Positions 13,725 through 62,401 of a stretch of DNA of 64,000 nucleotides are shown here, piece after piece. Numbering within the stretch: position 1 is the first letter of the stretch; every line of letters begins with the position of its first letter. The stretch is taken from the NCBI GenBank assembly GCA_029817715.1, contig JARUPY010000396.1:4092001-4156000 (forward strand), in the 5' to 3' direction. The notes beneath the pieces are model-generated. The model worked only from the letters and a program-made list of their open reading frames with translations. It did not search any database and was not told the origin of the DNA. The translations under genes and the position numbers were made by a program. The stretch is from Melastoma dodecandrum. Its lineage: Eukaryota; Streptophyta; Magnoliopsida; Myrtales; Melastomataceae.

Positions 13725-15890
13725 AGGCGCGCGTACAATGTGCATAAGGCTGCTTTTCAAACGTATCATGGTCATTATGAATTTCTTGTGATGTCATTTG
13801 GACTTACAAATGCTTCTTCTACCTTATAAGGGTTAATGAATTCGATTTTCTGGCCCACCGTTTGTCGTGGTGTTTTTTGATGATATCTTGGTATATAGTA
13901 TATCCAAGGCTGATCATGTTAATCATTTGCAAGAAGCTTTTCCTTTGATGCGGAAACATACTTTGTTTGCTAAACGTATCAAATGTGTCTTTGGAACTGC
14001 AAGAGTAGAGTATTTGGGACACTACATTAATAAAGATGGCGTCTCTACTGATCCTAAAAAAGTACAAGTTGTGAATGAATGGCCCGTTCCAAGTAATGTG
14101 AAGCAATTGCGAGGTTTCTTGGGGATGAGTGGTTACTCTATGAGGTTATTAAAGGATATAAGGGTTTGCAAAGCCAACATCGTCTTGCATTTATCAGCAA
14201 ATCATTAGCACCAAGGCATCACAGCCTGTCTGTTTAGGAAAAGGAGTTGTACTCTTGTATACGATTGGAAAGTGGCATCACTGCTTGACAGACAGGCATT
14301 TCTTTATTAAGAGTGATAATAAGAGTCTCAAGTTTCTTCTAAAGCATCGGTTTCATATTGAGAGGCAATTTAAGTGGCTTTCTAAGCTAATGGGCTATGA
14401 TTATGAATTAGTTTACAAGCAAGGGAAGGAGAATGTGGTTGCAGAATCTTTACCAAGGCTTCATGGTTCTGAGTTATTAGCAATAGTTATTCAAGGCTAC
14501 TCTCCTACATTGTCGGATGCAATTAAACAGTCATGGGTTACTGATATCTATATGAAGGAGCTGGTCATTAGGTTGAGGGATCGTAGGAAAACATCTTCCG
14601 AGTATAAGTGGCAGCAAGGCTTACATAAGAAGGGATCTAAGATTGTTGTAGGAAGAGATGACGCCGTCAAAATAAAAATTCTGCAGATTTTCCATTGAAG
14701 TGCAGTGGGCAGACACTCTGGTGTGTTGGCAACTACCAAAAGCATTGCTAGATTATTCTATCAGTGGGGAATTGAAAAGGATGTCAGGAACTTCGTTAAG
14801 AAGTGTGAGGTGTGTCTCAAGTGTAAGTATAACAATGCGTGGAAAGATATTTCAATGAATTTCATTGATGGTTCGCCAAAGTTAAATGGGAAGGAGACTA
14901 TTCTAGTTCTGGTGGATAGATTGACTAAATATAGCCATTTTATGATACTCACTCATCCGTATACAGTTGGGACAGAGGCTCAAACTTTCATGGATAATGT
15001 TTTTAAGCTACATGGCCTCCCTTCTACTATAATATGTGATGGGAATGTTGTTTTTTTTTAGTCGTTTTTTGTAGGAGATTTTCATGTTGCAGGGGATAGA
15101 TAAAAGAATGGATAAAAGAAGATGATTCGTAGATGTTTGGAGACTTATCTATGATGCATGACCGACGATAACCCAAATAATTGGTATAAAATTGCTTCCT
15201 TAAGCTGAATGGTGGCGTAACATCACTTACAATTCTTCCCTTCGCATGACACCTTTCGAGGCCTTATATAATTATCCATCTCCCCTCCACATTCCCTATA
15301 TTTCATACGATCATTCGTTGGCAGCGGTGGAGAAGAAACTCAGGGACAGGGGAGGCTATGTTGCTGGTGCTTGCTATTCAATTTGCATCGTATGAGGCAA
15401 TTGGCGAATCGACATCACTCTGAGAGGGAATTACTATTGGTGATTTGGTGTTTATCAAATTGCAGCCGTATAAGCAATTGAGTGTGGTAAAAAAGGTTAA
15501 TCATAAGTTATCTCCCCTTTATTATGGTCCATGTAAGATTGTTGATAAGATTGGCAAGGTGGCGTATAAGCTATAACTCTCTGTGGGGTCTATTGCCCAT
15601 TCTACCTTTCATATTTCTAAATTTAGAAGTGGTGTTCCTGGACAGATTATCCTCGACCTTACCTGACATTTGTGATTCTCAACCAGTGGTCCCTATTGTT
15701 ATTTTGGCAAAGGAAAATGGCCAAGCATGGATCCCAGGCAGCCACTATGGTCTTGGTTCGATGGAATAACATCTTGGAGGAGGATGCAATTTGGGAGTTT
15801 CTTCAATGATTTGTAGCCAAGGTTTCAGCTTGCTGGAGGATGGGGAGTTAGTTGTTACGGAAAGAGAAGAAAGTGGAGTGTTGTGGGTGA
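13725..15890 (+). pseudogene. Ty3/gypsy chromovirus-like remnant, reverse transcriptase to C-terminus
   Basis: The RT palm is readable ([19 protein letters not shown], then FFDDILVYS at about 13872). RNase H follows around 14200-14460 (FISKSLAPRHHSLS, KSLKFLLKHRF, MGYDYELVYKQGKENVVAES) after an internal deletion. The integrase zinc region (GRHSGVL, CEVCLKCKY) and core (DISMNFIDGSPK, LVLVDRLTKYSHF) occupy 14705-15061. The C-terminal part is at 15460-15860, with LQPYKQLSVVKKVNHKLSPL and a chromodomain-like tail (WNN-like segment, LEEDA..WEF). Order and motifs fit a chromovirus-type gypsy element. Frameshifts and stops occur throughout. It is the 3' half of the element at 8920-10333. Confidence 0.85.
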
Positions 15891-26704: not shown

Positions 26705-27706
26705 GAGTTTTGTACGGAAATACGGTTAGTTTTAAAAAAAATTTGCGAAATACGGTTCCAGTTTCGTAAAATACGGTTTTACCGTCGATGGGGCGCGTTT
26801 TGAAAACGCGCCCCCCGGCGTGCCAAAGGAAGGGGCGGGTTTTGAAAACCCGCCCCTATGCGAGATGAGAAAATGGCATGAGGGCGCGGTCGCAAAACGC
26901 GCCCTCATGCCAGGGGCGGGTTTTCAAAACCCGCCCCTTAGACACTTGGAGAAAATTCTCCCAAGTATCGGAATGACGGGTAGGGAGGAGGGGGCGGGTT
27001 TTCAAAACCCGCCCCTTGAGGGGGGTTTAGGGGGGGACGGGTCTTCAAAACCCGCCCCTTGAGGGGGTTCAGGGGGTGGGGGTTGAGTGGGGGGGCGGGT
27101 GAGGGGACTCGCCCCTTGAAGGAGGGGGTTGAAGGGGGGGCGACTGAGGGGGGGGGGGGGGCGAGTCCCCTCAAGGGGCGGGTTTTGAAGACCCGCCCCC
27201 ACTCAACCCCCCTCAAGGGGCGGGTTTTCAAAACCCGCCCCCTCTGAAACCCCTCAAGGGCGCGGGTGTTCAAAACCCGCCCCCCCTGAATCCCCCTCAA
27301 GGGGCGGGTTTTGAAAACCCGCCCCCCCCTTAACCCCCCCTCAAGGGGCGGGTTTTGAAAACCCGCCCCCCCCTCAACCCCCTCCTCCCCACCCGTCATT
27401 CTGATACTTCGGAGAATTTTCTCCAAGTGTTTAAGGGGCGGGTTTTCAAAATCCGCCCCTGGCATGAGGGCGCGTTTTGAGACCGCGCCCTCATGTCATT
27501 TTCCCATCTCGCATAGGGGCGGGTTTTAAAACCCGCCCCTTCCTTTGGCACGCCGGGGGGCGCGTTTTCAAAACGCGCCCTCTTTATAAATCGGAGGACG
27601 CGTTTTCAAAACGCGCCCCATCGACCGTAAAACCGTATTTTACGAAACTGGGACCGTATTTCGCAAATTTTTTTTAAAACTAACCGTATTTCCGTACAAA
27701 ACTCCC
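26705..27706. mobile_element. Fold-back element made of an array of GC-rich palindromes
   Basis: The ends are inverted copies: GGGAGTTTTGTACGGAAATA on the left and its complement at the right edge, continuing for about 100 bp of AT-rich terminal repeat. Inside, about 16 palindromes of 23-38 bp occur, mostly of the form GGGGCGGGTTTTGAAAACCC followed by GCCCC. Examples lie at 26790-26814, 26831-26857, 26875-26912, 26912-26938, 26991-27016, 27217-27241, 27301-27325, 27345-27369, 27435-27460 and 27516-27540. Their order and spacers (TGCCAAAGGA; ATGCGAGATG; ACACTTGGAGAAAATTCTCC) are mirrored about a G-rich centre near 27140, so the entire unit is one large hairpin. The frames predicted inside encode only repeats such as GAGFENPPL and GRVFKTRPL and are not treated as genes. 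No clear target duplication was found. A DNA-transposon (fold-back) origin is inferred. Confidence 0.75.
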
Positions 27707-39560: not shown

Positions 39561-40538
39561 GTCTCGCATAGTAGAGTATTTATAATTTGATAAATTTTAA
39601 AAGTATATTTTACTAAATATTTTTTGGGACCGAATGTTTATGATCCATAAAAACCATCCACTTCAACCGATGTTGTGTCACCGAAGCCAACGAGATTAAC
39701 TGTTTCTAAAGGTAAAAAAAAAAGAATTTGTTTTAAAAAAATTAAAAACACGTTTCTATTTAACAATGAAAATAATTCAAAAAGAAGTAAATAATGAGTG
39801 GGTGGAGAAGACCATTGTTGTCGAGAAAAAGTCAGGGAAAGAACAGATGGCGTCCATCCTTAGTGATGGAAAGAATCTAGCAGCCTCCCTTGAGTTGAGG
39901 AGGTACTTTTGCCTCTAAGAGAAAGCATCGCCACCAGAATGTTTTCCTTTCCCTTCCTTTTCTTTTTTTAACATTAAATCAGAGGCGGCTGCTCCCACTA
40001 GCAGAAAGCAAAGCAGACCAAACCAAATCTATTAATTAAAAATTTTTATTTAATAAAACCTGTCGCCTTGACCCAACTAGCTTTCATCCATTTTGCATGT
40101 TTTTTTTTCTTTTTATATTAAAATAATAATTATTATAATCTATAAATAACACTAATTGAAGCAAATAACTAATATTAGAGCCAACAATTGAAAGTGACAT
40201 AATTCGTTGACGGGTGAGTTTGTCTTTTATTACCAACATAATCTAATGATCTTGCTAATTGACTCCCAACTAGTGATCTCCCCCCTCCCACCCCTCTCTA
40301 TCAAAATTTCCCTTTTTGCATAATGGTGGGTGGGGCGGTACGCGTGTCGATCGATTTCTTTGCGCAACTTGTCTTTAATTACCTCCAGGGGGGATTAGTC
40401 AAAGGTGAAACCATTCGTGTCAGTTTAGAGGAATCCCCACCAAAACAAATCATTATCTATTAACTGCCAGAGTGTGTGTGTGTTTTTTCTAGCTCCTGTA
40501 AACTCCTCTCCACCTGTAAGAATCATATCACGGTACGC
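39561..40538. other. Intergenic DNA
   Basis: No gene, RNA or defined repeat could be supported; mixed AT-rich and pyrimidine-rich stretches. Confidence 0.4.
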
Positions 40539-40548
40539 GTGGTAGACC

Positions 40549-41955
40549 GGAAGCGGCTAACGGTACGTGCACGTAACCGTTACGTTGTTTACTAAATTCG
40601 ACCAAAATTTTAGTAATATTTACTAAAAATCGATTTTTTTAGTAAAATAATTAGTAAATTACTAAAAAATATTAGTAATCGGTTATTAATTTTTCACTGT
40701 TTGACCATTCGGAAAGTTACTAAACTAGGTTTAGTAAATCGGCGGAAAAATTTACTAAACTTTTTAGTAACAGATTACTAAAAATAACAGTGATTTGACA
40801 GTTTTTTTTAGTCATCGTTACTAAAATTTCACTGTTCAACTTTAGTAATCGGTTACTAAAAAATTTAGTAATTTTTTCCGCCGATTTACTAAACCTAGTT
40901 TAGTAACTTTCCGAATGGTCAAACAATGAAAAATTAGTAACGGTCCAGGTAGGCCGTCCGGAGATTTTAGTAATGATTTACTAATTTTGTAAGAAAAATT
41001 AGTAAATTACTATGTAACATAGTAAAGTCGTTAGTAAATTACTAAATTTTTAATTTTTTTTCGTAATCGTTTACTACCAATTGAACAAAATTCAGTAATC
41101 GATTACTAAACTTTTTAGTAATTTATTAAACTGAACAGTACATTCCGAACCTAAAACTGAACCCGTTTTTAATGTGAAATTACCATTTTACCCCTGCGAT
41201 AAATTACAAAATCGTTTACGAATTTTCAGTCCGAACCTAAAACCGAACCTATTTATAATTTTACCGCAGGGGTAAAATGGTAATTTCACACTGAAAGTAG
41301 GTTCGGTTTTAGGTTCGGAATGTACAGTCCTATTTAGTAAATTACTAAAAAGTTTAGTAATCGATTACTAAATTTCGTTCAAAAAATAGTAAACAATTAC
41401 GAAAAAAAGGACGACTTTAGTAATTTACTAACGACTTTACTATGTTACACAGTAATTTACTAATTTTTCTTACAAAATTAGTAAATCATTACTAAAATCT
41501 CCGGACGGCCTACTTGGAAAATTACTAGTATTACAAATTTTACTACAAAAAATTAGTAACCAAATTACTAATTTTTCACTGTTGACCATTCGGAAAGTTA
41601 CTAAACTAGGTTTAGTAAATCGGCGGAAAAAATTACTAAACTTTTTAGTAACCGATTACTAAAGTTGAACAGTGAAATTTTAGTAACGATTACTAAAAAA
41701 AACTGTCAAATCACCGTTATTTTTAGTAATCGGTTACTAAAAAGTTTAGTAAATTTTTCCGCAGATTTACTAAACTTAGTTTAGTAACTTTCCTAATTAT
41801 CAAACAGTGAAAAATTAGTAACGGATTACTAATGTTTTTTAGTAATTTACTAACGATTTTACTGAAAAATATCAATTTTTAGTAAATTTTACTAAAAAAA
41901 AATCGATTTTAGTAAACAACGTAACGGTTACGTGCACGTACCGTTAGCCGCTTTC
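40549..41955. mobile_element. Fold-back element, copy A (1,407 bp), TTTAGTAA-rich
   Basis: The element starts GGAAGCGGCTAACGGTACGT and ends in the complement (GTACCGTTAGCCGCTTTC). It is bounded by a perfect 10-bp direct repeat GTGGTAGACC at 40539-40548 and 41956-41965. The whole length folds on itself about a centre near 41235. Each arm is itself palindromic: a module containing CGGAAAGTTACTAAACTAG recurs four times in alternating orientation (about 40709, 40905, 41590 and 41785). Nearly all of the arm sequence is built from TTTAGTAA/TTACTAAA words, so every frame is full of stops. The centre (41135-41330) holds another inverted pair with TTCCGAACCTAAAAC and GGGTAAAATGGTAATTTCAC. No coding capacity. 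The 9-11-bp duplication class suggests mobilisation by a Mutator-type transposase. Confidence 0.9.
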
Positions 41956-41965
41956 GTGGTAGACC

Positions 41966-42903
41966 ATGAAACATGAACCATGACTTTTTTAAGGAGCTTG
42001 GAGTTTGTTTCGAATGGAAAGAAATCTGGTAATGGGGGGAGAAAAAAAGGGAATGAATCATAGGATGGAAAAAAAGGGGGGGAGAGGTCTGAACGGTGCA
42101 AGTTAGAAAGGAATCGTACAGGGGGCGGGGGAAGGCACGTTCAATGGTTGTGGTTAGGAGTGGAGTTAGGTCATTTTAGAAATGCAGACCAACCTAAGTG
42201 GTGTCTCTTCTACTCGTCAAACTTCAGTTCGATGTCTTCACGTGTCGTGAGCCGAGTCTGGGGAAAGCCGAAAGGCTAATTATTAGCTTAGGGAGGGAGG
42301 GAGGGGGCGGGATATGGATGCTATTATTGAGAGAGGCTGGATCCTCCTCTGTCATTCTACTCACCACACCACTCCACACTCCTCTCTTTTCAAATCTCTA
42401 ATTAATCTTAGTCACTTTGAGATCCGCATCTCATAGATAACAAGTTGGATGGAGACCCGAGCTTTTGTCCCTCTTTAAGAAATAATATTCTTTCCAAGAC
42501 TAATTGGTTATTGTTTTTGGTTTCCTTTTTTGCATTATTGTTGTTGCAGTGAGGAGCAGTTGATGCATGCAAGTACGTTTATCAACTTTGGAACACACTT
42601 TTCCATTATTGACTCGTGCTTTTTACAGGCTTGACATAGAAAGACGACTACAAGGAGAGTGACAACGAGAAGATAATATTGAAACACCCAAAAAGAGTTT
42701 TCTAAACAATTATTTTCTACTTTTGATTCATCTAGATTCAACACGATGATGATGATGCATCTTGTCTTTCTTCTTATAAACACGATGGAATTTTTAGACA
42801 GGATTTCTCATGTTTTGCTTGCTAAACTTGACTTTAAGTTGAGAACTGATGATTCGATGGTCGAGCTTGGGAGAGAGGTGTGTGTGGGTGCCAGTGTGGC
42901 CGC
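41966..42903. other. 3' flank of the AAP gene
   Basis: No other gene supported. The right part should be 3' UTR of the permease gene on the minus strand; a G-rich run occurs near 42292-42310. Confidence 0.4.
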
Positions 42904-44791
42904 CTACGTTGAACCGAATGGTTTGTACGACTTCAGGTCGAGGATGACACCAGCGACAGACCCGGCCGCGGCTGCGATTGTGATGACCAGACAGGCCATG
43001 CTCAGTATCTGGAGGCAAACCCACTTGGTGCTCCACTTGGGTATCTTCTTCTGCGAGATGTACATCTCGACGGGGAAGTACACTGTGAGTGGCCAGAAAC
43101 CGAGCGCCCCGAGCAACCCGACAATGTCATTGAAGAAAGGAAGCATCATCGAGACGACCGTTGTCGTGATCACAAACGCTGTGCGCCAAACCAACCGGAA
43201 GAGATTGAGCTTGTAGGGATGGCGCCCGGGAATGGGGATCTCAATGTCCTTGGTCACGAATCTGCTCTCATGGAATTTCTTGGCAGCCGCCTTCTCTACG
43301 AAGGCGAAGAGAGGCTGGCAGTAGACCTGGTATGCTCCAACGAGGTGGATAACGATGGACACATTGGCGATGTCGACGAGCCAGAATGGTTCAAAGAACC
43401 CAAATCCGGTCAGTAGGTTCCCTGGGGCACCGTCGCCAAATGCGGCATACCCCATGCATCCGCAGAGCATGTAGAAGAGGGTGGTCACCACCGTGCTTAT
43501 CAAGGTGGCCTTCTTCATCGTCTTGGATTCGGCCGGGGGAGACCGAATTGTGTCCTGAATCTCGATTAGGATGAGCGAGAAAGAGTACGCAAATGCGATG
43601 TCCCCGAGTGCCTGGAAACTCCTCCATAACTTTTGTGTCGGTGTCACCACTTCGATGCTTATTCCAGTGAGGCTGCCCTTGAATCCGCCGTTCTCTAGTA
43701 TCGGCAATAAAAGAAGACAAGATATTATATATCGATCTGCTTCTGTCAGTTCCGGTTTTAATGGAAGTATAATGGCATGGGGACATACCGGCGACTTTGG
43801 CAATCCCGAGTCCGAGCCCAATCGAGGAGTAGGTGAAGGACATGACTGCAGCAACAATGGACAGCCACCAAAGCTGGTCGAAGTCGGGGATCTGCGAGAA
43901 TATTATCTCCGTGATTCCGAAAGCAATCATATACGGGTTGCTGTTCGCTTTGCACGGGTTGCTCTGGCCTTTGACATGGAAGCAGTTGGACCTCTTGATA
44001 GCCCTGCGTTCAATGGTAAATTTCAACAAGTTAATAATAACTTGGAAAGTTGGGACAGTCTGCACTTGAAGTTAAACTGGTGCATGCTCACATCATGCTT
44101 ATGGAAGAGGCAATGGTGTATCCGATCGCGACCCCAACAAGGTTCATGTACTGAACCAGTCCACAAATCTTCACCTTAAGCCCACCTGAGATCATAACAG
44201 AAAATCGGAAGGTAAGAATCCGATACCAGCTGACTTGCATGAACCGTGCCGCTCCGAATCATGTTAGATTGGAAATAGGGAAGCAGCTGTTACCAAGATT
44301 AGAGTGAACAGCATCCATGTAGGTGTAGTTCCTCTTGCCGGTGATGGGGTCGCCGTGACGGTAACACGCGGCGAGGAGGGTAGAAGTGTAATAGGTGACT
44401 AAGGCGAATAGGAGCATCACAGCAGGGCCGGCCACCCAACCCAGCTGGGCCGTCGCCCACGCAAGGGACAGAACCCCCGAGCCGATCACCGCCGTTATGA
44501 TGTGCGCGCTTGCAGTCCATACAGTCCCTGCGACAAAGATAAAATCCCATGCGAGATTAGAGAGAAAGAAACACCACAAAGGGTATCCGAGATGGTTATT
44601 AACCGGGGGGGGGGCGGCGGAGGGGGGATGCAGTCAATAATACCTGTCCTCTTGAGGCGGCCATCATCGTCAAAGCACTTGGATCCCTGTTGAGGAGCAG
44701 GGAGGACGTCGATGGAGACGTCGAAGACCTGGGTGTTGGGGAAATGGTGGTGGTTGTCCTTGGCGGCTGAACCCACTCCCATCTTCCTCAA
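42904..44791 (-). CDS. AAP3: Amino acid permease (AAP3-type)
   Basis: Five exons on the minus strand, 44644-44791, 44294-44527, 44092-44185, 43789-44003 and 42904-43694, all GT-AG, encode 493 residues. The protein is a plasma-membrane proton/amino-acid symporter of the AAAP/ATF family. Visible landmarks are RTGTVWTASAHIITAVIGSG at the first membrane helix, GKRNYTYMDAVHSNLGG, GYTIASSISMMAIKRSNCFH, IPDFDQLWWLSIVAAVMSFT, FQALGDIAFAYSFSLILIEI, MLCGCMGYAAFGDGAPGNLL, GAYQVYCQPLFAFVEK and the C-terminal LDLKSYKPF. About 11 hydrophobic helices can be traced. The start at 44791 was taken as the first in-frame ATG; one at 44782 would remove three residues. It resembles Arabidopsis AAP3 (At1g77380) most closely by memory, but orthology was not tested. 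No disabling change is present. Confidence 0.93.
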
Positions 44792-44965
44792 AGATTGAAT
44801 GAAAGCGAAGCTTGACGAGGGACTTGAATGTACAAACAGAGATGAAGATGATCTGCGAATTGGCAGGGATGGCGTCTGTAAGAAATACAGCCGCCCCCCT
44901 CAAAAAATAAGAGTGTTGAATAGATGTTGTGGAGGGATGAAGGAATGGGAGGGAAGGGTGTTGGG

Positions 44966-44973
44966 TTTATATA
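44966..44973 (-). promoter_or_regulatory. TATA box of the AAP gene
   Basis: TATATAAA on the minus strand, about 175 bp upstream of the ATG at 44791. Confidence 0.5.
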
Positions 44974-45523
44974 GACCGGTTAGGAGGCAGATGAAAATGA
45001 GAGTGGCCAATCAAAAAACAAAAATTCTATTTGATTCAAAATAATAATTTTATGAAATAATGATATACAATTATTATTTTTTTAAATATTGAGTGGTGTT
45101 ATTATGAATATATAAGTCGTAACGTAACATGTACGTATGATCGGTTTTTGGGTAAAAGGGTATAGGATCGATTCTTCAAAATTATAAATGAGAAACTACT
45201 AATACCTCAATTGTAACCTCCCACGATTATTTCATAATCGCACCAAGTCATGCAATCATTTTCCTAGTCGGCCGTGAACTTGTATATTTTAGTGGCGGAT
45301 CACGTGACAACAGGAAGGTGGTAATAATAGTATTACGATTCTTTACTTTATCTTTTGAAATGGAATCTTTAGACCATTCAAAGAAAATGGGAACAGTAAT
45401 CGCAATGGGGCGTGTTTGGCACGAGGTGTGTCCATGCCCGTGGGCTCCTTCCACCCAACCTTTTTCTTTTTCATTCATTTTTAACCTCAAAAACTAGAGG
45501 TTTGGTTTGCTTTTTTTTAAAAA
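44974..45523. other. Upstream flank of the AAP gene
   Basis: AT-rich, no gene seen; likely promoter DNA of the permease gene. Confidence 0.4.
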
Positions 45524-45532
45524 AAAAATATT

Positions 45533-46106
45533 GGCAAAATATCGATTTATGGCCAACTTTCTGTTTTGTCATTAATTTAGTTTGTTATATAATTTTGTCA
45601 CCAATTTTTATTTTTATTTTGATTTTGGTAAATCTTGAATTTTGTCGTGCGAAAAAAAAACAGGCTTTGAGACAAAATTTTCATTTATTGACTAAAAAAG
45701 AAAAAAAAAATTAAAAATGATAAATAATATTAAAACATCTCATATGTTATTTTATTTTAAAATTTTAATGGCTAGATCAAGTGAGTTGGAAGTCGAAGTT
45801 GGACGATAGTTGCTGATGCAGTAAAAAATACACAAAATTGATGAAGGTGGAATGATTGCTCTATTGGGAGGTCATTGGTACGGATAAAATGAATTATGCG
45901 GCGAATGAATGAGAGGTTGGAAATCCACTATTATAAGACACGAGTCAGACTATATTAAGGTCTTGTTTAGCTTTCGCTAGAAGAAATTCAAGATTGACTA
46001 AAATTAATATGAAAGCAAAAGTTGGTGATAAAATTATATAACAAACTCAAATAATGACAAAACAAAAAGTTGGCTCATAGTTGAAGCCATAAACATATAT
46101 TTTATC
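45533..46106. mobile_element. MULE-type MITE (574 bp)
   Basis: The ends are inverted: GGCAAAATATCGATTTATGG on the left and the complement of GATAAAATATATGTTTATGG on the right, with similarity continuing for about 120 bp through GTTTGTTATATAATTTT and CTTGAATTT. A perfect 9-bp target duplication AAAAATATT flanks it (45524-45532 and 46107-46115). No coding capacity. Its GGCAAAATAT terminus is shared with the Pack-MULE that starts at 46602. Confidence 0.85.
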
Positions 46107-46115
46107 AAAAATATT

Positions 46116-46591
46116 TATAAAACTCCATGATATAAATTCGATATTAAAAACAACGAATTTATTTCAATAAAGAAGACGCCGTTTTTAGCGGCCTATCTTC
46201 TCAACCACTTTAACATACTTGATATATTTTAATATCCATCTCACCTTTTGATCTTCTTTGCGCGATATCTACCTCGTACTACGACGAAGAATTACGTAGT
46301 AGCTTTCATTGGTTACATCTCGTCTCTTCGTAAAGACAACACTCGGAATATAGAAATACGAAACCTGGTCAATGAAGGTTGGTGCTTATTGCTCGTAGAA
46401 TATCAAAAGCGGTTATGAATATTAAAAATATATCAAGTGGGAAAAAAGTGCTGGAAACAACCAGATACTTGTTAAAAGGGAACGAAGCTCCTCGAAACCA
46501 CACAAAATTATTGTATAACTTCACATGCAAAAGCCAATATGTTAGATTCTTATTTATAGAGTTGATATCTTTTAAACTTTTTTATCGATTA
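46116..46591. other. AT-rich spacer between two MULE-type elements
   Basis: No gene or RNA is supported. Confidence 0.4.
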
Positions 46592-46861
46592 AATAAATAT
46601 AGGCAAAATATACGTTTATGTCCTTAATTATTGGCGAACTTTCTTTTCTGTCAACTTCTTTTCTTTTTTCATATATAAAAATGTCACTAACTATGTCATC
46701 AACTTTTTTCTGACTAATTTTAAACGTTAGGCAAATTGCCGACGTGGACATAACGGAGGTCCACGTGGCAACACCGTAGGACATCCTATGTGGAAAAAGA
46801 GCAGAGACGTCCAATGTGGAAAGGGATCCACGTGGCTTTCCCTTCCCAAACAATCCACAAG

Positions 46862-47127
46862 GAGCTCGTCCTCGCATCTGCGGGCGGCAGCCCCAGCCAG
46901 AGCAGCATCGTCAATGACGCGTCCCCTCCCCATCCTATTCCACTTATCACGGGGTTCTATGTCCCGACTCCTCGGCCTCCGTCGTCGTTTTTCGACGTGT
47001 TTGCGCGAGAGGATTCCTCCTGTGGCGAGGGGATTAAGAGCGAGTCGGACTCCTCGAGCGTCCCGGACTGCGACGGGACCTCCAGCCGCGGAGGTTTCTC
47101 ATGAAAGATCTCAACCTCCTCCCGCCG
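46862..47127 (+). pseudogene. Captured ERF repressor fragment, C-terminal half
   Basis: The plus strand reads [20 protein letters not shown], then FYVPTPRPPSSFFDVFARED and SDSSSVPDCDGT up to a stop at 47102-47104. An EAR-type repression motif DLNLLPP follows at 47107-47127 in a different frame, so an indel separates it from the rest. The first residues duplicate the end of the minus-strand AP2 piece (ELVLASAGG), showing that both came from one gene. ERF proteins of this class are nuclear repressors acting through TOPLESS-type co-repressors. The AP2 DNA-binding domain is absent from this strand. Confidence 0.7.
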
Positions 47128-47356
47128 AGTCGGATTGATCTGGCATTTTGATTTCCTCCTCCTCCTAGTTTTGTTTCCCAGGGTCGTCCCTCCTCGGATC
47201 GAAATCGGTAAGGGTTTAGATTTTGGTCTTGTTTTAGAGAGGTAAAAAGTTCAGTTAAAATCCGCTTGCGATCTAAAGTCTAGCTGCAATAATCGGACCA
47301 AGAAAAACGTGTCGTGGAGAGGACCAATAATCGCCCCCAATGCAAATGGGGTGGCT

Positions 47357-47629
47357 GCCGCCCGCGGATGCGAGGACGAGCTCCTCGGGGGTGGGGAAGT
47401 TTGTCTTGGCCTTAGACCCACAGAACTCCCTAGCGGCAGCGTCATAGGCTCGGGCGGCATCCTCGACGGTGTCGAAGTTGCCGAGCCAGACCTTGGTCTT
47501 CTTGATGGGGTCGCGGATCTCGGCGGCGTAGCGGCACCAGAGTCGCTTCCTAACGCCGCGGAAGCGGCTCTCCACCCTGACAGTGTCAAGGGTAAGGGTA
47601 ATGGCGGGCATACGTGGCTTGGGAGCCAT
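47357..47629 (-). pseudogene. Captured ERF repressor fragment with AP2/ERF domain
   Basis: Starting at an internal Met at 47629 ([15 protein letters not shown]), a nearly complete AP2/ERF domain is present: [20 protein letters not shown] and [20 protein letters not shown], ending [17 protein letters not shown]. In active ERFs the segment reads RPWGRYAAEI; here Pro is Leu and Gly is Cys, both at positions that contact or shape the GCC-box-binding sheet. After SAGG the frame runs into transposon sequence for 28 codons. The open frame extends upstream to 47725 through the terminal repeat. It might be transcribed, but as a working transcription factor it is doubtful. Confidence 0.8.
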
Positions 47630-47933
47630 TTCCTCAAGGGACTTGGCCGGCTTCTTGCATTGCGTGCTGTGCTTCGAGTCGTGGATTGTTTGGAAAGGGA
47701 AAGCCAAGTGGACCCCTCTCCACATAGGACCCCCTGTCCACGTAGGACGTCTCTGTTCTTTTTCAACATAAGACGTCCTGGCAACGTCGGCAATCTGCCT
47801 AACGTCGTCTAAGATTAACCAAAAAAAAGGTTGATGATATAGTTAGTGATATTTTTGCATATGTAAAAAAAATGTTGACAAAAAAGAAAGTTCGTAATTA
47901 GGAACATAAATGTATATTTTGTCATTAAATATA

Positions 47934-48176
47934 TATTGTTTTTTTTCGTAATTAGCCGAGACATTATTTAAATTGAATTATAATAAAGTCAAAATGTGGC
48001 CTCTTCCTCATCAGACGTCGCTGTTACTTCTACTTTTGTTCCCTCCAAAATAGGACGATCAAGTATCAATCGATCGGCTCGGATCTTAAAAAAAAAATGG
48101 CGACCTGAAGCTGCGTGTGTTCTGAAATTCTGCTACGTCGGGGGAGCTTCATCGATGCGCCGCCGAGGGTTTAACT
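47934..48176. other. Short spacer, no gene recognised
   Basis: An open frame at 47996-48187 (+) has no recognisable domain and runs into the target duplication of the fold-back element. Confidence 0.4.
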
Positions 48177-48186
48177 CGAGATGGTA

Positions 48187-49652
48187 GAAAGAGGCTAACG
48201 GTACTTGTACGTAACCATTACGTTGTTTACTAAAATCGACTTTTTTTTAGTAAACTTTACTAAAAATCGACGTTTTTTAGTAAAATCGTTAGTAAATTAC
48301 TAAAAAAAATTAGTAATCGTTACTAATTTTTCACTGTTTGACCTTTTGGAAAGCTACTAAACTACGTTTAGTAAATCGGCAGAAAAATTTACTAAACTTT
48401 TTAGTAACCGTTTACTAAAAATATCAGTGGTTTCGCCTTTTTTTTAGTAACCGTTACTAAAATTTCACTGTTCAAGTTTAGTAAACGGTTACTAAATTTT
48501 TTAGTAAATTTTTCCTCCGATTTACTAAACGTAGTTTAGTAACTTTCCGAAAGGTTAAACAGTGAAAAATTAGTAACGGTTACTAATTTTTTAGTAAAAT
48601 TTCTATTTTTAGTAATTTTCCAGGTACGCTGTCGAACGATTTTAGTAATGCTTAACTAATTTTATAAGCGAAATTAGTAAATTACTGTGTAACATAGTAA
48701 AGTCGTTAGTAAATTACTAAAATCGTCATTTTTTTTTGTAATCGTTTACTATTTTTTGAACGAAATGTGCTGAAAATTTAGTAATCGATTACTAAACCTT
48801 TTAGTAATTTACTAGATAGAAGAGTACATTCCGAACCTAAAATCGAACCTACTTTCAGTAAGAAATTACCATTTTACCCAAGCGGTAAAATTACAAATAG
48901 GTTCGGTTTTAGGTTCGGACTGAAAATTCGTAAACGATTTTGTAATTTACCGCTGGGGTAAAATGGTAATTTCATACTGAAAACATGTTCAGTTTTAGGT
49001 TCGGAATGTACTGTTCTGGTTAGTAAATTACTAAAAAGTTTAGTAATCGATTACTAAATTTTCAGCACATTTCGCTCAAAAAATATTAAACAATTACGAA
49101 AAAAATGACGACTTTAGTAATTTACTAACGATTTTACTATGTTATACAGTAATTTACTAATTTCTCTTATAAAATTAGTAAAGCATTACTAAAATCGTTC
49201 GACGCCGTACTTGGAAAATTACTAAAATTATAAGTTTTACTAAAAAAAATTAGTAACCGTTACTAATTTTTTATTGTTTGACCTTTCGGAAAGTTACTAA
49301 ACTACGTTTAGTAAATCGGCGGAAAAATTTACTAAACTTTTTAGTAACAGTTTACTAAACTTTAACAGCGAAATTTTAGTAACGGTTACTAAAAAAAAGG
49401 GCGAAATCACAGATATTTTTAGTAAACGGTTACTAGAAAGTTTAGTAAATTTTTCCGCCGATTTACTAAACATAGTTTAGTAACTTTCCGAATGGTCAAA
49501 CAGTGAAAAATTAGTAACGATTACTAATTTTTTTTTAGTAATTTACTAATCATTTTACTAAAAAAAGTCGATTTTTAGTAAAGTTTACTGAAATTTTCGT
49601 CGATTTTAGTAAACAACGTAACGGTTATGTGCATGTACCGTTAGCCGCTTCC
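48187..49652. mobile_element. Fold-back element, copy B (1,466 bp), TTTAGTAA-rich
   Basis: Second copy of the family at 40549. It starts GAAAGAGGCTAACGGTACTT, ends GTACCGTTAGCCGCTTCC, and is bounded by the perfect 10-bp direct repeat CGAGATGGTA (48177-48186 and 49653-49662). The same four alternating modules (GGAAAGTTACTAAACTACG-like) and the same centre with CCGAACCTAAAA, GGGTAAAATGGTAATTTCA and TTCGTAAACGATTTTG are present. Substitutions are scattered along both arms, yet pairing between arms is kept. Coding capacity is nil. Confidence 0.9.
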
Positions 49653-49662
49653 CGAGATGGTA

Positions 49663-50470
49663 CGCCTACGAGGAAAGGTTTTATTCTAACATCTTTTCTC
49701 CACACACTTGTTCTGTTGCTAATGTAATTAATAGCCCCAGATAATGGCCCTACACTCCACAAACTCCTGCTTTGCCCAATTCGTCGCCGAATCCTTTTAG
49801 ATCCAACTTAATCGCGCAATTTAAATATTTTTGTTTTGTTTTGTTTTTCTTTGAACATTCCTAATCACGAAGTTTTATTTCAATCTCGTAAACTATGATT
49901 GGAAATATAATTATATTTTAAAATCTTGAGTCCCCAATGAAAGAATTAACTCGTGTTATTTTAATGAGGGATGAGGATCATCTCCACTCGGGATAAGCTT
50001 AACAGTTTTAACTTAAATGACCCTAATCTTACTTTTATTAATCTTACGTTTTTCCAGAAAATAATAAAATAACTTCATTAATCCTTTTAAATAAATTATT
50101 TTTATTAATCAATTTAAGAAATATAATTCGATATTATTTCCACTTTTAACAACTATAGCACAAAGTTTTAGTTTATTTTTTTAATATGGAGTATCTTTTA
50201 CAACTTGTTAGTTAATATGTTAAACCATAATGTCAATCGAATCCGTCTTACCCTAGATAATTAACAAGTAATAAAAAAACCACTTATACATTAGAAGTTT
50301 TCCTAACCATTGATCAAAGTATTGAAATAACATGGTCATTAACTCGACATTATCGATTTTATTCCAATTACATCGCATAGATTCACATTCAACCAAAAGT
50401 AATTAACTTTATCTTTGTGGGGAAGAGTATAGGAAAAAAGGAAAAGAAAAAGCAAGAAAGAGAGTACCAA
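49663..50470. other. AT-rich intergenic DNA
   Basis: No feature supported. Confidence 0.4.
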
Positions 50471-56114: not shown

Positions 56115-58528
56115 ATGGCGCCAAAGATGATTAACGTCAAGAATGCTGTCGCGTACAATCGACTTGCTGCTTTTCCTTCATTCTCATCCGGGGGCTCTTT
56201 ATCTGCGGAGTTTCCAAGGTTGGTCAAGGCTAGGACCATTGCTGAACTATATAAGGAGACTGATGAATTGCTCAAGTCCGTCTCTCCCAAGGCATCTCCA
56301 TCTTACAGGATGTCGCTGAAAAGAATATTATTAATGACGGAGATTCTCCAAAGTGGACATATGCCCAGCCTGTAGCCATGACGCGCAAACAAGCTGAAGA
56401 GACAGAAGAAATGCTCAAGTCTATCTCCCCTAAGGCTTTCCCATCTACAAGGATGTTCTTAACCAGGGAGGCTATCCAAAGTGGACGTATGCCCAATCTG
56501 TGGCCAAAACTCGCAAACAGACTGAGGAAATAGAGGGAATGGTTAGAGCAATTTCCCCTAAGTCATCTCAACCAACTGCTGGTGACAATCCCTTCGACAA
56601 GGTTCTGTTGTCTCCTATCCGCAGATAAATTTTGAAAATATTTCGTCAAGTGACTCTCCGTCGAATTCTTCCCCAGATGCAGATTCAAGTAAAGGCTTTA
56701 AACTCATGCCAGTGATGATGGCAGATACCCCTTCACTTGAAAATCCGGTCACAGCTCTCACAAAAACTGTGGATGTTATGATGCTTTTTATGAAAGAAAG
56801 AGAGCAGCAAATGGACTACATTGTCAAAAGGCTGGAGAGTAAAGACGCCGACAAAACATCTATGGAGGAAAGTTCACGCACCCAAGTTGACAAAGGAAAT
56901 GGGGTCATAAATGTTGATGATTCGGCAAAGCACACGTCCATTGTTGAAGATCCTATTCCGGCTAAAGCAATGATGAAATTAATAAAAGAAACGGTAAAGA
57001 ACGAGCTTGAGGGCAAATCATCATCATCGTCGGCATATTATAAGCCTTACAGTCGGAGAATTGAAGATCTCAAGATGTGGCCCATTTCGATGGAAAGGGG
57101 AATCCACGTCAACATGTGGCCCATTTCGTTGAAACTTGCAACAATGCATGCACAGATGGGGATTGGATGGTTAAGCAGTTTGTTCGCTCTCTGAAGGGAA
57201 ACGCTTTTGACTGGTACATTGATCTCAAGCCAGGCACAATTGATAGTTGGGAACAATTGGAAAGGGAATTTCTGAATCGCTTCTACAGCACGCGACGCGT
57301 AGTGAGCATGATTGAGCTAACTAATATTCGTCAATGGGAGGAAGAATCCGTCGTCGACTATATCCAACGATGGAGGAATCTGAGCGTGAACTGTAGGGAT
57401 CGTCTATCAGAGGAAACGTCTATCGACATGTGCATTCAAGGCATACTCTGGAGAATTCGATATATTCCATAAGGGCTCAAACCACGATCATTCAAGGAGT
57501 TGGCGACGAAGGCTCATGATATGGAGTTAAGCTTTATTGGGACCAACATAAGTAACATCCCAATACCTGAGTCACCTAGAGCGACAGGAAGATCAGGAAA
57601 TAGAACTGGGGGCAAGCCCACTTTCAAAGATACGAAGAAACAGGTAATGACTATAGATGCAACTCCTGTCAAAGTGCCAATTGCAAAAGGAAAAGTCCCA
57701 GCAAATGGACAATCACTTGCAGAAGCACCCAGGATGGAGAGGCAACGCCCAACTCTTGAAGAAAGGCAAAATAAGAAATATCCTTTTCCTGATGAAGATG
57801 TTGCAGAAATATTTGAGTATCTATTGTCTTATAAAATGATCGAGCTTCCCCAATCAAAGCGACTGCAACAAGCGAATCTGGCTGACCATCCCAACTTCTG
57901 CAAGTACCATCGCGTCTTAGGCCATCCAATTGAGAAGTGTTTCGTCTTTAAGGAGAAGGTCATGGAGTTTGTATGTGACAACAAGATTGATTTAGGAGCC
58001 TACATTGCACCTTTGAATATGATCAGTGTCGCAAACAATGATACTCCTAACATCATATTCGGAACTGTCGATTCTGCTAAGATAATTGGACTACAAAGTC
58101 GGGGGATAATACAACAATATATGACCAAGGTGTCAAGTTGTGTGCTTAGCTCTGAAGAAGTATCTATTGAAGAAGGCTGGACTTTGGTGACTCACAAAAG
58201 GAATCAGAAGAGGTCTTCTAAGCCTGTTAAGAAAACGCCTCCTATACGAGCAAAGATTGCGATGATGTCACCAATAAAAGCGTATTCCAGGATAAAAGAG
58301 GAGAGTTCACTAGATGACCAGTCCTTGAAGAAACCAACCTCGGCTACGTTATGGGATTTCTTTCCGGAACGTTTTCAAAAACTTGCAAATCTGTCTAGGA
58401 GTTGTCACCACATTGATGCAGACAAAGAAGTGATAGCCGCGAAGGTCGACACACCAGAAGATCCCGTAGTAATGAATGGTAACCACCATAAGATCCCAGA
58501 AGATCCCGCGAAGGTCGACACACCATAA
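56115..58528 (+). pseudogene. gag of the Tat-lineage gypsy element
   Basis: Gag starts at MAPKMINVKNAVAYNRLAAF. A roughly 120-bp segment (LLKSVSPKAS, then QSGHMP) is duplicated in tandem at about 56265-56515, with frame breaks. The gag domain proper reads FDGKGNPRQHVAHFVETCNN, GNAFDWYIDLKPGTIDSWEQ and FYSTRRVVSMIELTNIRQWE (57077-57472). A short local duplication near 57077-57130 and an in-frame stop follow. A zinc-knuckle-like CKYHRVLGHPIEKC lies at about 57900-57940. The frame then runs to 58528 without a recognisable aspartic protease, so the protease domain appears deleted. Confidence 0.85.
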
Positions 58529-58546
58529 GTAACCACCGGTGACGTA

Positions 58547-59680
58547 TTGAAAATAAGCACGAAGACATGGGTATCTACCAATAGCAATGGGGAATCGTCT
58601 CATAGTAATAGTGGAAATGATATTGTCGCTTCCCATCACGTCACAATTATCGAGGCTGATGAAAACACTTCCCATAAAGAGGATGATGCAGAAGAGGCTC
58701 CAAAAGTATTCGAGGACCAAAAAAAGTCTATTGTCGACGAGTTGAAGGAAGTCGATCTTGGGGAGGAAGGGGATCATCGTCCTACATTCCTTAGTGCAAG
58801 TTTAACCCCTGAAGAAGAAGAGTTATACATCAGACTGTTGAAGGAATACAAAGATGTCTTCGCATGGAGCTACAAAGAAATGTCCGGCCTTGATCCAAAG
58901 ATAGCAGTCCATAAGTTAGCTGTTAAGCATGGAGTTCGACCCACAAAGCAAGCTCAACGACGTTTCCGCCCAGAGTTAATCCCATTGATAGAAGCCGAAG
59001 TCAACAAGCTTATCGAAGCTGGATTTATTCGGGAGGTGAAATATCCAACATGGATTGCAAATATTGTACCTGTTAAGAAGAAGAACGGTCAACTCCGAGT
59101 TTGCGTTGATTTTCGTGATCTCAATAATGCGTGTCCCAAGGACGATTTTCCTCTTCCGATCACTGAGATAATGGTAGACGTGACCACTGGTTACGAAGCC
59201 CTCAGTTTTATCGATGGATCATCGGGATACAATCAAATCCGAATGGATCCGAAAGATGTGAAAATGACAGCTTTTCGTACTCCAAAAGGAATATATTGTT
59301 ATAAGGTGATGCCTTTTAGGTTGAAGAATGTTGGAGCAACTTATCAACGAGCTATGAAACGGATTTTTGATGATATTCTCCACAGGTATGTAGATGTTAT
59401 GTGGATGATCTGGTTGTCAAATCCAGACAAAGGCACGATTATATTGATGACCTTAGAAAAGTATTTGACAGACTGCGCAAATATCAACTGAAAATGAACC
59501 CCTTGAAGTGTGCATTCGGGGTCACTTCGGGAAAGTTCCTTGGATTTAGCGTTCAACATCGAGGCATTAAAGTCGATCAATCAAAGATAGATGAGATTAT
59601 GAAGATGCTAAGACCAAAGAATATACATGAGTTGAAGAGCCTTCAAGGGAATCTTGCATACATTCAAAGGTTTATATGAA
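58547..59680 (+). pseudogene. Reverse transcriptase of the Tat-lineage element
   Basis: The RT runs from TPEEEELYIRLLKEYKDVFA through FIREVKYPTWIANIVPVKKK, LRVCVDFRDLNNACPKDDFP and SFIDGSSGYNQIRM to GKFLGFSVQHRGIKVDQSKI. The catalytic YVDDLVVKS block is present but one nucleotide is missing just before it (near 59394), which throws the frame. PFRLKNVGATYQ carries Arg where Gly is usual. Confidence 0.9.
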
Positions 59681-59682
59681 AC

Positions 59683-61034
59683 TTGCCCGGACGATGCCAT
59701 CCCTTTCATAAATTGATGAAGAAAGGTACTCCTTTTGAGTGGGATGAAGCGTGTGAAAATGCATTCAACAACATAAAAGCCTATTTGTCGAAGCCGCCGG
59801 TCCTAAATGCTCCAATCCAAGGAAGACCCCTCATACTTTATATAGCAGCACCAAAAGCTTCACTAGCAGTTATGTTAGCTCAGGAGAACGATAATGGAAA
59901 AGAAAATGCCATGTACTATTTAAGCAGGACTTTAGCCATAGCGGAATTGAATTACTCTCCAATTGAGAAGACATGTCTTGCTTTAATATTTGCCATTCAA
60001 AAGTTACGACATTATCTGCAGGCACACTCTGTTCATCTCATATCACGGGCAGATCCTCTCAAATATATAATGTCAAGGCCAATTTTATTTGGTCGTCTCG
60101 CGAAATGGGCACTTATACTCCAAGAATTTGAGATCTTGTATGTTCCTCAAAAGGCTGTGAAGGGACAAGCTTTGACCGACTTCTTAGCAGATCATCCTAT
60201 ACCATATAATTGGAAAGTATCGGAAGAATTACCCGATGAGGAAGTAATGTTGATTGATGCTCCCTCTCCATGGAAAATGTTCTTTGATGGGTCAGCTACA
60301 CAAAGAGGCGCGGGAACTGGAGTTGTCTTCGTCACATCCGATGGAGATATCATCCCTTATGCATATACCCTCACTCAGTTATGCTTAAATAATATGGCTG
60401 AGTATCAGACTCACATACTCGGGTTAGAAATGGCCATGAATAACAAAGTATATAGTTTGACGGTATATGGAGACTCAAAGCTTGTGATTAATAAATTTCT
60501 ATCCACATACGAGGTTCGCAAGCCAGAGCTTTTGCCTTATCATGATTATGTGGTTAAACTCGCAGGGTGGTTTCCAGATATTACAATAAGTCATATACCG
60601 AGAAAGGAAAACGCACAAGCAGATGCCTTGGCGAGTCTTGCTTCTGCTCTTACTTCGGTAGATCGAGAGGTCAGCATCAGCTTGTGTCAAGCATGGGTGG
60701 TTCCACCAATCCCTGACAAGGAGGAAACAAACGAAATAAATCTTATATCCGTTTATAACATAGATGACCAAGATTGGAGACAACCACTCATCGACTTTCT
60801 CGAGCACGGAAAGCTGCCTAACGACCCACGACAAAAAGTAGATGTAAGGAGGAGAGCGCCTCGATTCATATATTTTAAAAATACTCTTTATCGGCGAACC
60901 TTTGAAGGAGTATTCTTGCGATGCCTTGGAGTGGAAGAAGCCACCAATGTAGAGGAGGCGCATTCTGGAGTTTGTGAGGCTCATCAATCTGGTCCTAAAC
61001 TCCACTTCCAATTGAAGAGCATGTATTATTATTA
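59683..61034 (+). pseudogene. RNase H, archaeal-type RNase H and integrase zinc region of the Tat element
   Basis: A single open frame of 450 codons. The first RNase H (ALIFAIQKLRHYLQAHSVHL, LAKWALILQEFEILY) is followed by a second, archaeal-type RNase H with the acidic residues in FDGSA, AEYQ, YGDSKLVI and NAQADALA. Two RNase H domains in series are the hallmark of Tat-lineage gypsy elements. The integrase H2C2 region begins at AHSGVCEAHQSGPKLHFQLK and is cut by TAG where Trp is expected (YYY*PTM). Confidence 0.9.
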
Positions 61035-62020
61035 GCCGACAATGGTAAAGGATTGTATGGAATATGCAAAGAAGTGTCAAGCATGTCAATTTCACGCCAA
61101 CTTCATCCATCAATCGCCCGAGCCACTTCATCCAACTGTAGCATCTTGGCCATTTGATGCCTGGGGCTAGATGTCGTAGGCCCATTACACCCAAATCATC
61201 AGGGGGTTACTCATATATTTTGGCGGCAACCGATTATTTCTCCAAATGGGCCGAAGCTACATTCTTTCGAGAAGTGAAGAAGAAAATGGTGATCACCTTC
61301 ATCAAGAATAATATTATTTTTCGTTATGGTATGCCTCGCTATACCATCACAGATAATAGCCGGAATTTCTCTAATAAGGCCATTGATAAATTTTGCGAGC
61401 AATTTGGTTTCAAATTATATAACTCTTCCATGTATTATGCGGCCGCAAACGGGTTGGCGGAGGAGGCGTTCAATAAAACGCTATGCAATCTTCTAAAGAA
61501 GGTGGTCGATAAAGCTAGAAGAGATTGGTATGAACGAGTTGGAGAAGCCCTATGAGCGTATCGTACGACGTATAGAACTGCGACTCAAATGACGCCATAC
61601 TCGTTGGTCTACGGCGTTGAAGCGGTCCTTCCGCTTGAACGACAAATACCGTCACTGCGAATAGCCATACAAGAGGGACTTTATCTGGAAGATAATGCGT
61701 GATTGCGCTTGCATGAACTATAAGCTTTGGATGAGAAACATCTTGAAGCCCAGCAGCGGATTGAATGCTATCAGGCGAGGATATCGAAGTCTTTTAACAA
61801 GAAAGTACGACCTCTTTCCTTTCAAGTAGGTGACCTTGTTTTGGCGGTGCGAAGACCTATAATCATCACGCACAAGACCGGGATCAAATTCACATCCAAG
61901 TGGGATGGTCCATACGTAGTCCAAGAGGCTTACACTAGGGGTGCCTACAAGAGAGTTGATCGAGATGGAGTACGGGTCGGACCAATCAATGGGAAGTTCC
62001 TAAAACGATACTACGCCTAA
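61035..62020 (+). pseudogene. Integrase core and C-terminus of the Tat element
   Basis: The zinc-finger cysteines CQACQFHANF, the core LDVVGPITPKSSGG (after a 1-nt shift near 61168), ATDYFSKWAEAT, ITDNSRNFSNKAIDKFCEQF and the region of the third acidic residue (LAEEAFNKTL) are readable. [20 protein letters not shown] follows a stop at about 61553. The C-terminal frame 61727-62020 ends KFTSKWDGPYVVQE and INGKFLKRYYA. At least three stops and one frameshift disable it. Confidence 0.9.
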
Positions 62021-62119: not shown

Positions 62120-62269
62120 ATGTAATATTCCTGGCCTGCATGAGTATAAAGTGTGAACGGTTAAATAAAATGTAATACTCCTGGCCCGCACGAATATAAA
62201 CTGTGAACGGCTAAATAAAATGTAATACTCTTGGCTCGCACGAGTATAAACTGTGAACGATATAATAAA
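62120..62269 (+). repeat. Three tandem copies of a 50-bp unit
   Basis: Units at 62120-62169, 62170-62219 and 62220-62269 each begin ATGTAATAYTC and contain TATAAACTGTGAACG. They lie between the end of integrase and the antisense gene, in the spacer typical of Tat elements. Confidence 0.85.
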
Positions 62270-62401
62270 AAGAATCAAAGTCCAAAGCATAAATTAACTA
62301 GAAAGAAAAAAAGGGCTCAAGGTTCCAGAGTAAATTGTGCAATCTCCTCGCGTGAGGTCTCGATCAACTCGCGAAGCTCTTCTAAAGACTGAAAATCATC
62401 G

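Follow-up and report, generated by a model that had tools for sequence, protein, structure and literature searches.

Nested-palindromic fold-back elements of Melastoma dodecandrum, probably non-autonomous Mutator-like transposons, carry a dense and conserved heptamer array

The described systems closest to the elements reported here are the plant fold-back transposons FARE1 and MuTAnT. FARE1, in the account of Windsor and Waddell from 2000, is said to be about 1.1 kb long, modular and made wholly of long inverted repeats with strong predicted secondary structure, and reportedly has imperfectly palindromic termini and 9-bp target duplications. Arabidopsis FARE1 represents a group of fold-back elements that have long palindromic repeats at each end and are now counted among the Mutator-like elements (MULEs), and Medicago truncatula MuTAnT is a MULE-related fold-back element, often near genes, whose long terminal inverted repeats (TIRs) are modular and whose dot-plot shows four similar segments with their orientations marked (PMC4486113). 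The founding MuTAnT element is 292 bp long, the family ranges from about 0.2 to more than 1.6 kb, and insertion is into (TA)n with 9-bp duplications. In this study, we analyzed a 64,000-nucleotide stretch of Melastoma dodecandrum DNA (contig JARUPY010000396.1, positions 4,092,001 to 4,156,000; hereafter the window) and found two fold-back insertions, copy A and copy B, with independent 10-bp duplications and matching ends. They probably represent one family of non-autonomous fold-back transposons of the MULE kind.

MULEs generate target duplications of 7-12 bp and have TIRs that may exceed 300 bp (PMC9168764), and tandem TIRs occur in plant MULEs (PMC3310237). Tetris, a fold-back element with 8-10-bp duplications, was assigned to Mutator on these duplications and on earlier suggestions about fold-back elements; the same paper states, citing others, that the internal repeats of Galileo TIRs hold extra transposase binding sites (PMC4079207). 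Composite TIRs carrying internal repeats are described for Tm1. In Drosophila Foldback4, palindromic modules make up the largest part of the sequence (PMC2955051). Arabidopsis VANC21 binds the 9-base motif YAGTATTAY, which is dense in non-coding VANDAL21 DNA, and VANC induces a loss of methylation (PMC5735166). Maize Mu killer is a MULE-derived long inverted repeat with a proposed 4-kb hairpin RNA (PMC3440606).

A preliminary description of this DNA had proposed a transposon-like fold-back element with a perfect 10-bp target duplication, and both points were borne out. Copy A is 1,407 bp long and is bounded by perfect 10-bp direct repeats, GTGGTAGACC. This duplication could also be read as 11 bp if a leading C is counted; the 10-bp reading is preferred because the ends then match better (GGAAGCGG/GAAAGCGG). 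Copy B is 1,466 bp long, lies in the opposite orientation and is flanked by another perfect 10-bp duplication, CGAGATGGTA. The two copies aligned over their full length with 85.8% identity, gaps counted. Shared flanking DNA, which would have spoken against transposition, was not seen within the window: the duplications are independent, and the 1-kb flanks of A showed no similarity to those of B detectable at an E-value of 0.01. A 48-nt terminus query allowing up to 16 mismatches gave only four matches in the window, namely the four ends of A and B. Copies A and B represent separate, independent insertions of the same element. The features of copy A are:

40539..40548, + strand: left target-site duplication (GTGGTAGACC)
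41956..41965, + strand: right target-site duplication (GTGGTAGACC)
40549..41955, + strand: copy A, 1407-bp fold-back element
40549..40586, + strand: left outer terminal repeat, an imperfect palindrome AACGGT-ACGTGCACGT-a-ACCGTT with one offset base
41918..41955, - strand: right outer terminal repeat
40683..40782, + strand: module M, copy 1
40841..40940, - strand: module M, copy 2, inverted
41565..41663, + strand: module M, copy 3
41722..41821, - strand: module M, copy 4, inverted
41540..41845, no strand: inner palindrome P of the right arm, 82% identical to its own reverse complement
40966..41110, no strand: a further inner palindrome, Q, in the left arm, 67% identical to its own reverse complement
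41353..41496, no strand: right-arm counterpart of Q
41111..41352, no strand: centre, nearly free of the heptamer described below (219-bp step between successive words)

The features of copy B, with module coordinates converted from those of the reverse complement, are:

48177..48186, + strand: left target-site duplication (CGAGATGGTA)
48187..49652, - strand: copy B, 1466-bp element, 85.8% identical to A with gaps counted
49653..49662, + strand: right target-site duplication (CGAGATGGTA)
48320..48419, + strand: module M
48477..48576, - strand: module M, inverted
49260..49359, + strand: module M
49418..49517, - strand: module M, inverted

Copy A had been described as self-complementary over its full length. 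We aligned it with its own reverse complement, and positions 3-1405 of the 1,407 were 84.8% identical (1,452 columns, 98 of them with gaps). The arms thus align in inverted orientation and pair nearly throughout, but the pairing is imperfect, with 8.5% mismatches plus indels. Each arm is about 700 bp long. Over ungapped columns, the two arms of an element match each other at 91.5% in A (659 compared) and at 90.4% in B (726 compared), and comparisons between an arm of A and an arm of B give 85.8-90.0%. About 40 bp present in the other three arms are missing from the left arm of A, small indels occur as well, and the centre of A is poorly paired. The terminus is itself imperfectly palindromic: by eye, AACGGTACGTGCACGTAACCGTT matches its own reverse complement with one offset base, and because of this base the palindrome is invisible in an ungapped test. 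The results also bore out the description of a palindrome of palindromes, in both copies. A 100-bp module query gave four matches per element in alternating orientation, with 95-98% identity in A and 92-97% in B, and within the 722-bp arm consensus positions 90-429 and 455-599 were 85% and 68% identical to their own reverse complements, respectively. A FastTree tree of the eight modules placed the four A modules together with weak support (0.55-0.82) and is not leaned on.

Folding predictions agreed with this architecture. As single-strand RNA, copy A was predicted to form one end-to-end hairpin of -869.8 kcal/mol (a value that has no shuffle control at that length), in line with the very long hairpin that had been expected of a transcript. 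Single arms also fold alone: a 692-nt stretch of the left arm of A reached -252.5 kcal/mol, where 20 shuffles averaged -120.5 (z -14.9), and 371 nt surrounding the right arm's inner palindrome reached -158.6, where 100 shuffles averaged -55.8 (z -22.8). The centres of the two copies (41136-41325 and 48830-49015) contain GGTTCGGTTTTAGGTTCGGA and GGGTAAAATGGTAATTTCA stretches free of the heptamer; this central DNA is possibly captured or ancestral internal DNA.

The arms are densely set with two complementary heptamers, TTAGTAA and TTACTAA, in both orientations. Copy A holds 56 of them and copy B 61, where dinucleotide shuffles yield about 2 (300 shuffles for each word, with each word averaging 0.94-1.18 per shuffle of the same sequence), and only nine lie in the 61,127 bases of the window outside the two copies. 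Exact heptamers cover 28-29% of the element bases, so the earlier statement that the arms consist almost wholly of such words was too strong. Stop-free stretches reach at most 68 codons in A and 59 codons in B, and no coding sequence was seen in the element.

We then compared variation inside and outside the words in an alignment of the four arms. Its length is 759 columns; the counts cover the 654 of the first 715 columns that have a letter in all four arms, leaving out indel columns and the ragged centre, and draw on 30 arm-consensus words (16 + 14). The results showed that 10/210 word columns were variable, compared with 104/444 other columns (Fisher p = 2.5e-10). CpG columns, none of which falls within a word, varied most (22/60), and their exclusion gave 10/210 versus 82/384. 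By base outside CpG, the variable columns in words versus elsewhere were 2/90 versus 30/139 for A, 2/14 versus 19/51 for C, 0/16 versus 17/50 for G, and 6/90 versus 16/144 for T, and A and T columns only gave 8/180 versus 46/283. As a control for circularity, one arm was used to define the words and variation was scored in the other three, which gave 5/182 versus 87/472, 9/203 versus 95/451, 8/196 versus 92/458, and 6/189 versus 87/465. When the word mask was shifted circularly, 0/653 shifts reached 10 variable columns (mean 36.6, minimum 11). Among the eight modules, 3/42 word columns were variable, compared with 18/58 others. The word is therefore the conserved part of the element. From conserved words between drifting spacers we infer binding sites, that is, a dense protein-binding array, and the word probably binds a protein that moves or protects the element. 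A helical phasing of the words was also considered (19 hand-picked, non-redundant gaps, R = 0.56, p ~0.02 against random spacing); with a best period between 10.0 and about 11.2 it was too weak, hinged on the choice of gaps and was not used.

The four arms also bear possible signs of exchange. At 39 sites the arms divide two against two: 23 sites pair the arms of one element, 14 pair left with left, and 2 group the other way. We left out the two sites that group the left arm of A with the right arm of B, and collapsed adjacent informative sites by hand, from 37 sites to 28 events. In columns 227-491, 15/16 informative events grouped arms of the same element, compared with 4/12 elsewhere (Fisher p 0.001, with boundaries set after seeing the data). 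This suggests, without proving it, that sequence has passed from arm to arm within an element (gene conversion) in the mid-arm region.

Taken together, we consider it probable that A and B form one family of non-autonomous fold-back MULE-kind transposons, moved by a transposase in trans, with the conserved words as binding sites. A MULE transposase encoded elsewhere in the genome would act in trans, would cut at the GRAAG...CTTYC ends, and would insert the element with a stagger of 10 bp. The arms are nested palindromes of a repeated module with dozens of TTAGTAA/TTACTAA words in both orientations, and these words may bind the transposase or a VANC-like accessory protein encoded by a transposable element. 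Copies that kept intact words would be those that moved, and gene conversion between arms may help to keep them alike. Because no transposase was found in the window, we assign the superfamily from the architecture and from the lengths of the duplications and inverted repeats. The two different perfect 10-bp duplications fall in the range of 7-12 bp reported around the MULE length of about 9 bp, the arms of about 700 bp are long terminal inverted repeats, and the elements consist mainly of long, internally repetitive inverted repeats that can snap back, as those of fold-back elements can.

Several results weigh against this interpretation. The duplications are 10 bp long, and the length typical of MULEs is 9. 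A Pfam scan of 86 window open reading frames (ORFs) of at least 95 aa, read from stop to stop and excluding + strand ORFs whose starts lie in the retrotransposon region at 56.5 to 61.6 kb, gave no MULE transposase among 25 listed of 29 matching families, a search that short exons would escape. Outside CpG, the contrast at T columns alone is small (6/90 versus 16/144), so that T columns contribute little to the word contrast. The overlapping word AATTACT varies still less than the heptamer (1/35), and is the only word with at least 4 consensus occurrences that does so. The comparison covers two elements only, so that neither the four arms nor the eight modules count as independent, and the lowered variation could also stem from gene conversion. 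The boundaries in the arm mosaic are post hoc; permutation of segments gave p = 0.014 and a runs test p = 0.054.

Instead of being chiefly a mobile array, the element might act mainly as a silencing trigger: a hairpin produced by read-through transcription would be diced to small RNAs that silence the family or an autonomous partner, as Mu killer does with MuDR. The predicted end-to-end fold of A RNA and the independent folding of its left-arm and right-palindrome stretches are in keeping with this, as are the position of A and B, each less than 1 kb from ORFs with plant gene domains, and the precedent of the hairpin proposed for Mu killer, likewise a long inverted repeat of the MULE kind (PMC3440606). 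On the difference side of that comparison, the present element has no coding sequence that we could see. The mismatches and indels between the arms of A speak against a trigger, and a hairpin role does not predict that heptamers are conserved while spacers drift. We regard silencing as the main function as possible but somewhat doubtful; it may be a by-product, and it is compatible with a fold-back MULE. Alternatively, a MULE might encode a VANC-like anti-silencing protein that targets the word array, and the element would then parasitise another element's anti-silencing system. Like the VANC21 motif, the word is short, A+T-rich, very dense and conserved, and lies in non-coding DNA of a transposable element; the motifs of VANDAL21 are bound by a protein that a transposable element encodes (PMC5735166). 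Yet VANC21 motifs run in one orientation, often in tandem, whereas here both orientations occur; VANDAL TIRs are degenerate (PMC10398659), whereas here they are extreme; and no VANC-like domain was among the 25 listed of 29 Pfam families of the window. YAGTATTAY itself was tried as the word and rejected, with one exact match in A and none in B. Given these counts and the one-directional VANC21 motifs, only the principle carries over, and we consider such a parasitic target unlikely.

It is more improbable still that another superfamily, P-like as Galileo or hAT-like, mimics a fold-back MULE here. P and hAT elements generate 8-bp duplications, and the perfect 10-bp duplications at both insertions argue against them. 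In favor of such mimicry, the fold-back form arises across superfamilies, and Galileo has a P transposase (PMC3169594). Palindromes are generally prone to misassembly, and the structure could in principle be a palindromic satellite or an assembly artefact and no transposon. We rejected this and give it almost no credence, since the two copies are diverged (85.8% identity), lie at different sites in opposite orientation between flanks without similarity, and have their own 10-bp duplications. The fold-back MULE remains our preferred reading. A further idea is tentative and rather doubtful: the gene-less element would be a near-pure landing array of up to 61 words, selected to titrate or recruit a protein encoded by a transposable element (transposase or anti-silencing factor) and so to out-compete its autonomous parent, and the nested palindromes would be a by-product of building the array by inverted duplication.

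Compared by description, the present element shares with FARE1 the long palindromic repeats at both ends and the imperfectly palindromic termini reported for FARE1; it differs in its 10-bp duplications and in a heptamer array of a density not known from FARE1. It shares with MuTAnT the fold-back TIRs built from modules, the four similar segments and the nearby genes, and differs in its length of 1.4 kb, its 10-bp duplications and its target, which is not (TA)n: the duplicated sites are GTGGTAGACC and CGAGATGGTA. Tm1, Tetris, Foldback4 and Galileo are animal elements with other sequences, and the internal repeats of Tetris and Galileo are described as tandem, whereas here the word lies in both orientations inside palindromic modules. 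The preliminary description knew of no plant element built in this way; that view is not supported in the light of FARE1 and MuTAnT, both modular fold-back MULEs (PMC4486113). Because they have already been described, the architecture is of a known kind, and what is new is the unusually dense, bidirectional and conserved word array. No comparable array was found described in the part of the literature surveyed, which is no proof of its absence from print. The terminus pattern had 0 matches in viral contigs, blastn against plasmids with the low-complexity filter on gave none, and Rfam over 40400-49900 gave no match at gathering scores; these misses say little because the collections are not meant for plant nuclear DNA or transposons.

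Both elements have genes nearby. The start of copy B is 461 bp upstream of the listed start of an AP2-domain ORF (47273-47725, - strand), and copy A ends 948 bp downstream of the end of an amino acid permease ORF. Among 120 listed of 3,888 matches to the permease ORF (query 42907-43857), the highest identity, 97% across 84% of the query length, was to Melastoma candidum; one further protein reached 90%, and a Eucalyptus grandis protein and another one reached 84%. The best E-value was to a Vicia faba protein at 75%. The ORFs of the window carry AP2, Aa_trans, RING, 2OG oxygenase, Hyccin, BRCT and PTP-NADK domains together with retrotransposon pieces, and a plant mobile domain is weakly matched in one ORF (E 0.0028).

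Other repeats were also observed in the window. At 26986-27382, G+C-rich tandem repeats of about 42-43 bp with GGGGCGGGTTTT-like units lie inside a - strand ORF (26938-27465) that appears to be repeat read-through. Retrotransposon pieces occupy 56706-61555, with a gag domain at 57077-57469 followed by ORFs that by eye resemble reverse transcriptase, RNase H and integrase, apparently split over several frames. A retroelement remnant with an RT_RNaseH domain (reverse transcriptase RNase H; E 3.9e-06) lies at 14255-14695, and three tandem copies of a 50-bp unit lie at 62120-62270.

Because the element sits among genes, hairpin RNA or methylation, if any, could affect its neighbors. The division of the arms into a conserved word and drifting spacers makes it directly testable whether the long, modular arms of fold-back MULEs are protein-binding arrays.
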